A stretch of DNA of 64,000 bases, from NCBI GenBank assembly GCA_027620655.1, contig JAQCDS010000004.1, positions 62,001 through 126,000 of the forward strand, written 5' to 3'. Below are positions 43,242 through 45,033 of the stretch, piece by piece. Within the stretch, counting starts at the first letter, position 1. Each line of letters opens with the position of its first letter. This DNA comes from Bacteroidota bacterium (GTDB lineage Bacteria; Bacteroidota; Bacteroidia; Flavobacteriales; Flavobacteriaceae). The notes below the pieces were generated by a model, which worked only from the letters and a program-made list of their open reading frames with translations, did not search any database and was not told the DNA's origin. The position numbers and the translations under genes were made by a program.

Positions 43242-43297
43242 CCACCAATGGTATTTTGTGAAATTTTGGTTAAAAATCTTATATATCGACGATTTTA

Positions 43298-43317
43298 ATT
43301 GTTGCCAATAGTTTTTA
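43298..43317 (+). repeat. 20-bp direct repeat, left copy flanking the toxin-antitoxin pair
   Basis: AATTGTTGCCAATAGTTTTT, identical to 43888-43907. Confidence 0.85.
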
Positions 43318-43321
43318 TCAG

Positions 43322-43609
43322 TTACAATTTTTCATTCAAGTCTTGTCTTCCAACAATAGCCATTATTTCCACAATATTTTGATTGATTCTGTAGTAAATA
43401 CTATCAACTCCACATGCACAACGTCGATATCCTTTTTTTATGTAATCTACAGATTCAAAGGAAAAAGGGCGTTTTGCAATAATGTCAAAATATTCAAAAA
43501 ACGATTCGAAATAGTGATCCGCTTGGGTAATTCCAAACGTTTCAACGCCATAATGATGAATTCGAATCAAGTCATTTTTTGATTCGTTGGATAATTTATA
43601 TTTAGCCAT
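43322..43609 (-). CDS. Type II toxin, RelE/ParE family
   Basis: 95 aa; YKLSNESKNDLIRIHHYGVETFG...YYRINQNIVEIMAIVGRQD; overlaps the antitoxin gene. Confidence 0.88.
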   Translation of the reverse strand: MAKYKLSNESKNDLIRIHHYGVETFGITQADHYFESFFEYFDIIAKRPFSFESVDYIKKGYRRCACGVDSIYYRINQNIVEIMAIVGRQDLNEKL

Positions 43610-43841
43610 TGAGTAAAGACTTTGATTGCGCTAAAATACTTTCTTTAGTGTCATTCGTAAATCCACTATTTTCGGCTTTTTCCAGCTTAGCTCTAATCCA
43701 GTCAATTTGAATTTGTTGTTTTCGGGCTTGTCTAATCAAGTCGTTTACTAACTCACTTTTACTTGAATATTCTTTATTGTTTACTTGGGTTTTTAGCCAC
43801 TCGTCATTTGGCTTAGTGAATGTTATACTTTGTCTAGACAT
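43602..43841 (-). CDS. Type II antitoxin, ParD/CopG family
   Basis: 79 aa; SITFTKPNDEWLKTQVNNKEYSSKSELVNDLIRQAR ribbon-helix-helix pattern. Confidence 0.85.
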   Translation of the reverse strand: MSRQSITFTKPNDEWLKTQVNNKEYSSKSELVNDLIRQARKQQIQIDWIRAKLEKAENSGFTNDTKESILAQSKSLLNG

Positions 43842-43887
43842 AATTTTTACTTTGATTCAAATATACACCAAAAACGCATCATTATCA

Positions 43888-43907
43888 AATTGTTGCCAAT
43901 AGTTTTT
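43888..43907 (+). repeat. 20-bp direct repeat, right copy flanking the toxin-antitoxin pair
   Basis: AATTGTTGCCAATAGTTTTT, identical to 43298-43317. Confidence 0.85.
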
Positions 43908-43980
43908 CCCGTCGCTAGCGCGAGCATCTTTGCTCGTGCTGGTATAGACACAAGCGTGGACGCTTGCGCCAGCGGGGGGA
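43907..43980. repeat. GC-rich structured (REP/MITE-like) element
   Basis: Outer arms TCCC..CGCTAGCGC / GCGCCAGCG..GGGA enclosing two 6-bp hairpins: CGAGCA-TCTT-TGCTCG and CAAGCG-TGGA-CGCTTG. Confidence 0.6.
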
Positions 43981-43999
43981 GTTTTTTTGTCCTAGATGT

Positions 44000-44791
44000 T
44001 TATTGCAATAAATCAGAAAGTTTAAACGATTTGACTTTAATTTTACCATCACTTCCATCATTTCCATCTCCACCGTTTGGGCCATTTGCTGCAACAACAT
44101 TATGTCCTACTCTACAAGGTCCACTGTTTCTCCCACCTTTACCGCCTCTTCCGCCTTTACCACCTTTACCACTATTCGTAGAGAATATAATATCGTTTAA
44201 TTCAAATACGATAGGGTTGTAGATTGTAAATATGTTTAAATTTCCACCGTTTCCACCTGGTTTACCTCTACGACCATCTTTGGCTGGACTTCGGCAATCT
44301 ATCCCGTAACGACTTCTGCTATTTCTCCCATTATGTCCTCTTGCGCCATTTTTTCCATTATTTCCAGATAAGTCGATTTTTAACAAGCCTGTGAATGATT
44401 CAATGTTGTAAATATTAATATCCGAACCGTTTTTACCATCATTAGACTTTTCAGAATAGGATTTGATTTTTGTGTTTTTCGAGATGATTTTATTTGAAAT
44501 AATTGTCATTTCATTTCCATTTGTTATAATCTCAAAATCAGATAGTTCTAATCTGTCCAGAATCAAGAAAAAGGAATCTAATTCTTGTGGTAAAATAAGT
44601 TTACCAATTTTTAGAATTAGTTGTCCGCCACGATCAATTCTTTGATTTAAATCTTGAACTGTGTTGATTGTGGATAGGTCTGTTGTGATAATTTCTGGAA
44701 TATCTGAAACTGATATGTTTCCAGAAAGTATTGTCTGCGCATAACTACTTATACATAGCGCAGTGCATAAAATTAAAAATGCTTGTCTCAT
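44000..44791 (-). CDS. Secreted collagen-like Gly-rich protein
   Basis: 263 aa, signal peptide; GXY-type runs NGKNGARGHNGRNS, DGRRGKPGGNGGN, GKGGKGGRGGKGGRNSGP, NGPNGGDGNDGSDG. Confidence 0.8.
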   Translation of the reverse strand: MRQAFLILCTALCISSYAQTILSGNISVSDIPEIITTDLSTINTVQDLNQRIDRGGQLILKIGKLILPQELDSFFLILDRLELSDFEIITNGNEMTIISNKIISKNTKIKSYSEKSNDGKNGSDINIYNIESFTGLLKIDLSGNNGKNGARGHNGRNSRSRYGIDCRSPAKDGRRGKPGGNGGNLNIFTIYNPIVFELNDIIFSTNSGKGGKGGRGGKGGRNSGPCRVGHNVVAANGPNGGDGNDGSDGKIKVKSFKLSDLLQ

Positions 44792-44981
44792 AAGTTCATT
44801 ATTTAGGTTGGTTTAATACTGTTTTAACCCCCAAATAAACATCTTCAACAACTAAAATTTAGTTTAAAAAAAATAAAATCTACAAGAACTGGTGTAGGTC
44901 ATTCATGTTTTTGAAGAATAGATTTGGGGGCTATTCATTTCAAATGTATAAAAATTTTTTAAACAAAAAGAAGTGTTGTAT

Positions 44982-45018
44982 AAAAAAAACCCTCACGTTT
45001 GGTGAGGGCTTTTGGTAT
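44982..45018 (-). terminator. Intrinsic terminator downstream of the zinc-ribbon-family gene
   Basis: CCCTCAC-GTTTG-GTGAGGG hairpin; poly-T on minus strand. Confidence 0.8.
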
Positions 45019-45033
45019 GAGTAGGGTTATTTA

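Follow-up and report, generated by a model that had tools for sequence, protein, structure and literature searches.

An inverted REP doublet beside a parDE cassette in a Flavobacteriaceae genome, most likely an immobile relic of a RAYT-accompanying family

The spacer between msrA and a zinc-ribbon gene (43242-45033) in the window, which means the whole 64-kb stretch of DNA that was analysed, harboured a parDE-type toxin-antitoxin cassette, a collagen-like open reading frame (ORF) and, between them, a short palindromic element. The genome carrying the window (G000) is a draft of 1.90 Mb in 18 contigs, with a completeness of 99.76%. The features are given below, where G008 is a sister species of the same genus and R2 is a covariance model built solely from other genera, with no sequence of the window's genus in it.

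43297..43316, no strand: left copy of a 20-bp direct repeat, bounding the parDE cassette.
43322..43841, minus strand: parDE-type toxin-antitoxin cassette, with ParD at 43602-43841 and ParE at 43322-43609 (Pfam PF03693, PF05016).
43888..43907, no strand: right copy of the 20-bp direct repeat, outside the REPIN and immediately adjoining it, absent beside the G008 orthologue.
43908..43978, no strand: REPIN, an inverted REP doublet, 94% identical to the orthologous G008 locus (fold z = -4.1).
43910..43939, plus strand: REP half A, foot ..GTCGCTAG, hairpin GCGCGAGCATCTTTGCTCGTGC, CTAG at the foot (R2, 41.6 bits, E 2.5e-7).
43940..43947, no strand: spacer tggtatag between the R2 matches to the two halves.
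43948..43977, minus strand: REP half B, inverted, CCCCGCTGGCGCAAGCGTCCACGCTTGTGT, CTGG at the foot (R2, 42.3 bits, E 1.8e-7).
44000..44791, minus strand: glycine-rich collagen-like ORF of 263 aa on the other side of the REPIN, absent in G008.

The parDE cassette was situated between two exact 20-bp direct repeats lying 591 bp apart (43297-43907), and a promoter-like site was observed before parD at 43888-43860, with the REPIN upstream of this site. The ORF at 44000-44791 possessed an N-terminal signal-like stretch and gave no Pfam match. From msrA to the zinc-ribbon gene, congeners carried differing insertions or none (about 50 to 1,070 bp).

Re-reading of 43907-43980 agreed with the original prediction in sequence and coordinates, in the outer stem and in each of the two hairpins (CGAGCA-TCTT-TGCTCG, CAAGCG-TGGA-CGCTTG). 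This stretch was the GC maximum of the window, with 65% against 34% overall. Folded as DNA it reached -22.0 kcal/mol, shuffled versions gave -13.7 +/- 2.0 (z = -4.1), and none of the 200 shuffles equalled it. Among 6,393 74-mers sampled from the window at a step of 10 (mean -4.5), the most stable ones were found at 43911 (-19.3) and 43901 (-17.5), both overlapping the REPIN, and the best 74-mer elsewhere reached -14.5. The two hairpins were one palindrome of ~30 nt present twice in inverted orientation, with the consensus CCCCGCTRGCGCRAGC-N4-6-GCTYGTGC, and the borders of the doublet were set at ~43908-43978 (71 bp) by alignment to the G008 orthologue. Scanning of the 64-kb window with R2 gave no match beyond halves A and B. 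Elsewhere in the genus, REPINs at other loci had longer spacers than this tggtatag.

When RNA parameters were used and some flank was included, the two halves paired together in a single long hairpin (-46.5 kcal/mol, z = -4.0), as is expected from two inverted copies of one REP. A hairpin predicted to be this strong could give a hint of a functional transcript, serving the neighbouring genes as an intrinsic terminator, an mRNA stabiliser or a small RNA; the plus-strand stem at 43963-43976 was followed by a T run and flagged as terminator-like, and the REPIN lay ~20 bp past the stop of the minus-strand ORF 44000-44791. However, the neighbouring genes were all on the minus strand, where the stem was followed by AAAAACTATTGG and no T run, and the terminator role was ranked low because the T run was on the wrong strand. 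In addition, neither a tRNA nor an Rfam family matched the REPIN at 43908-43978, the REP relatives occurred at unrelated loci and flanked transposase genes, and seven congeners carried no REPIN in the fully read zinc-ribbon-msrA spacer. A functional RNA or terminator is thus a very improbable explanation; lying in the 3' flank of a minus-strand gene, the REPIN may have a small influence on RNA stability. Elsewhere in the window, an S15-Flavobacteria ribosomal protein leader (RF03161) was identified at 815-882 on the minus strand, above the gathering score.

Thirty-four aligned REPs gave a 9-bp stem with compensatory change, in which 96.4% of the pairs were standard across 28 distinct sequences. 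The double-change cells numbered 21, against 6.3 +/- 2.9 after shuffling (0 of 500 shuffles reached 21), the innermost pair occurred as GC, AU and UA, and slid controls scored far lower. The covariation check that had been proposed for the hairpins therefore came out in favour of the REP hairpin. In the five whole REPINs of the genus, double change was present at one pair only, so the outer stem of the REPIN stands without independent covariation support. The tetranucleotide CT[AG]G was located at the foot of 31 of the 34 aligned REPs (counted by eye), and it also took the place of the canonical REP tag GT[AG]G at the foot of the window REPIN.

The REP family was present in 45 of 301 Flavobacteriaceae genomes. 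A DNA search of 100 genomes gave matches in nine, with the window's own genome among them, and an exact-pattern scan of genome contigs returned a single locus, in Euzebyella. The sample of the phylum-wide survey was drawn mostly from the same family and order, that is, from within Flavobacteriales. In other genera most REPs were singlets or RAYT flanks, not tight doublets. Literature searching with the REP sequence returned unrelated papers only.

Within the genus, G008 carried the orthologous REPIN at the same locus with 94% identity, in the order zinc-ribbon gene, REPIN, msrA and kynureninase. A total of 13 REP matches were distributed over three contigs of G008, with additional doublets at two sites of contig C5. 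A disrupted RAYT had a REP array on one side and an inverted REP on the other. This array (L035:6918-7243) comprised seven REPs in direct orientation beside the disrupted RAYT, with near-identical spacers, the inverted doublets being elsewhere. One REP doublet was found in G009, and no REPIN was detected there within 800 bases before msrA. The order of half B and half A was identical in all five aligned REPINs of the genus. The zinc-ribbon-msrA spacers of seven other congeners, read whole, contained no REPIN; those of G003, G007, G010, G002 and G001 were short, and those of G005 and G006 held other, REPIN-free insertions. The genus offers contrasting states, namely a disrupted RAYT with an array in G008, a REPIN without detected RAYT in G000 and G009, and neither in G005.

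The original prediction had also suggested that the 20-mer might mark where a larger element ends, the toxin-antitoxin cassette being inserted into it or beside it. Indeed, the 20-mer adjoined the REPIN without a gap and two exact 20-mers bounded parDE, as would be seen if the REPIN were the edge of a mobile element including the repeat and the cassette. The REPIN of G008, at the same locus, was found without 20-mer and without cassette, so the 20-mer is no edge of the REPIN, and the cassette is a neighbour and does not belong to it. Moreover, no 20-mer was seen beside the other REPINs that were read, and the left 20-mer, beyond parDE, had no REP alongside. We consider such a larger element extremely unlikely. 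Elsewhere in the genome the 20-mer occurred once with two mismatches (C13:396866-396885) and three times with three, and no REP or similar cassette was present within 600 bases around each of these weaker matches (L068-L071). At the site of parDE and the 20-mer, G008 had ~70 bp of different sequence, and its sequence between REPIN and msrA differed from that of the window; parDE was missing in the G008 spacer, as it was in the short ones of G001, G002, G003, G007 and G010. Genes have been gained and lost repeatedly in the msrA-zinc-ribbon spacer, a local hot spot, and the cassette and the REPIN may touch there without any causal connection.

The original prediction of a REP-type element linked to RAYT (IS200-like) transposases was borne out, since relatives of the element in other Flavobacteriaceae flanked RAYTs as inverted pairs facing inward, and G008 carried both a disrupted RAYT with a REP array and the orthologous doublet. 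A RAYT profile was found in 88 of 301 Flavobacteriaceae genomes, and REP and RAYT occurred together in 27 (27/45 genomes with REP, 61/256 without), with an odds ratio of 4.8 and a Fisher p of 2.8e-6 uncorrected for phylogeny. The REP was present in all ten genomes with the closest RAYTs; where the RAYTs were intermediate, the figure was 7 of 29. Among the matches listed, 37 of 92 REPs in RAYT-bearing genomes lay within 250 bp (<=250 bp) of a RAYT, and 36 of these 37 were oriented inward. In Euzebyella saccharophila, intact transposases (open frames of 198-204 aa) were situated between two inward-facing REPs; the same layout was repeated in other genera, with REPs flanking RAYTs in G008, G347, G243, G104, G161 and others. 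Not every REP-bearing genome showed a linked RAYT: the Y1 protein of G011 (L064) fell below the RAYT cut-off and had no REP alongside, the REP of G011 being elsewhere, and G077 possessed two Y1 genes with no such REP within ~3 kb. A tblastn search against plasmids returned only RAYTs of 50% identity or less.

Three of the RAYT proteins exceeded the cut-off of NCBIfam NF047646, "REP-associated tyrosine transposase" (86-91 bits, cut-off 80). IS200 proper was also considered and rejected, the close RAYTs scoring well below the NF033573 cut-off. The RAYTs of the relatives bore the motifs WQ and Y[IV]H[NK]NP, and their HuH motif was SHVH in five aligned proteins. For subclass 2.6 the motif list of PMC6006769 contains NH[LIV]H, WQ and YIH[QN]NP; by sequence, the RAYTs of the relatives thus appear close to group 5 (subclass 2.6) in the W and Y motifs, and not in the first HuH residue.

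In the window's own genome the two halves of this one REPIN were the only REP matches, and within-genome amplification is therefore not visible. Searches of this genome for Y1_Tnp and RAYT detected none, and no RAYT was present at the locus where G008 has one, although in a draft genome a RAYT may lie in an assembly gap. The RAYT search suggested with the original prediction thus gave nothing in this genome and succeeded in relatives, including G008 with its disrupted copy. A single copy without homologs had been named there as evidence against the idea; the genome did hold one doublet only, and homologs were found in relatives. Multiple dispersed copies, a criterion for REPINs, occurred in G008 and not in G000.

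Taken together, 43908-43978 is very probably a REPIN composed of two inverted REPs of a Flavobacteriales family, which occurs together with RAYT transposases similar to those of group 5 (subclass 2.6), and which is left here as a relic. The CT[AG]G foot, the SHVH form of HuH, the single REPIN in the genome and the predominance of singlets and RAYT flanks among the REPs of other genera speak against this explanation, and no transposition event was seen. The REPIN is a known kind of element and largely ordinary; we file it as an orphan belonging to a multi-copy family instead of an active REPIN population. With no RAYT detected and one REPIN left at a locus common to the sister species, it is most likely a relic that no longer moves and that persists passively or serves at most as a 3'-UTR hairpin of the 44791-44000 gene. 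Alternatively, the doublet might be kept for a benefit to the host, as a protein binding site, for insulation of transcription or for mRNA protection, since the orthologous REPIN was 94% identical in two species though no RAYT could be detected in G000. Nevertheless, the REPIN was common to these two species only, its persistence may be passive, and both of its flanks were remodelled in G000 relative to G008, which makes a host benefit rather unlikely.

Cutting, movement, immobility and any present role of the REPIN are what we infer here, the first steps on the model of TnpA-REP in E. coli and of the REPINs in Pseudomonas (PMC3116915, PMC8266576). In single-stranded DNA, each REP half would fold into a hairpin with CT[AG]G at its 5' foot. 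The RAYT, a HuH/Y1 nuclease and probably a dimer, would bind the folded strand and cut beside this foot, after which the doublet would be copied or transferred into another intergenic position. As searches of its own genome detected no RAYT, the copy in the window would most likely be immobile. Both parDE and the collagen-like gene adjoin the REPIN and are missing in the sister species, giving a hint that REPIN edges may have been entry points for genes. Only tentatively, this could be one part of a wider picture, in which the flavobacterial RAYTs of this group perhaps use a distinct code (CT[AG]G foot, stem of the G.T-bearing GCGCRAGC/GCTYGTGC type) and an asymmetric A/B REPIN was built in one genus.

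Compared with the REPINs of Pseudomonas fluorescens SBW25 (Bertels and Rainey 2011, PMC3116915), the window REPIN shares the two inverted REPs, the length of roughly 70-80 bp, the less conserved spacer, the hairpin fold and the link to RAYT. It differs in its REP sequence with the CT[AG]G foot and in copy number, with one copy here and hundreds there, and its cognate RAYT was not found in its own genome. The REP/BIME elements of E. coli with TnpA-REP (PMC8266576) have in common with it the imperfect palindrome, a 5' tetranucleotide and, within the stem, a conserved position that departs from Watson-Crick pairing; there the foot is GTAG and the bulge AA-GC, whereas here the foot was CT[AG]G and the stem carried a conserved G.T wobble. 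The GTAG- and CGTC-tagged REPs (Di Nocera 2013, PMC3733652), some of them in Bacteroidetes, are likewise short palindromes with a fixed tag. The window REPIN has no GTAG, meanwhile CGTC is present in half A; among the aligned REPs, CGTC was limited to this half and the G008 orthologue, so it is not the tag of the family. A further likeness is to the REPtrons of RAYT group 5 (TnpA-Y1 subclass 2.6), mostly of Bacteroidetes (PMC6006769): there too the RAYTs belong to Bacteroidota and bear WQ and YIH(N)NP, and the palindromes flanking them recur at other places in the genome, whereas the listed NH[LIV]H differs from the SHVH of the relatives. There the structures flanking subclass 2.6 RAYTs, from manual inspection, are called "atypical", and the main text as consulted gives no such REP consensus. 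For this poorly described REP group, of which the same source, so far as drawn on, says only "atypical structures", a usable consensus is now available, and together with the covariance model and the RAYT-flanking examples it makes the recognition code between REP and RAYT testable.
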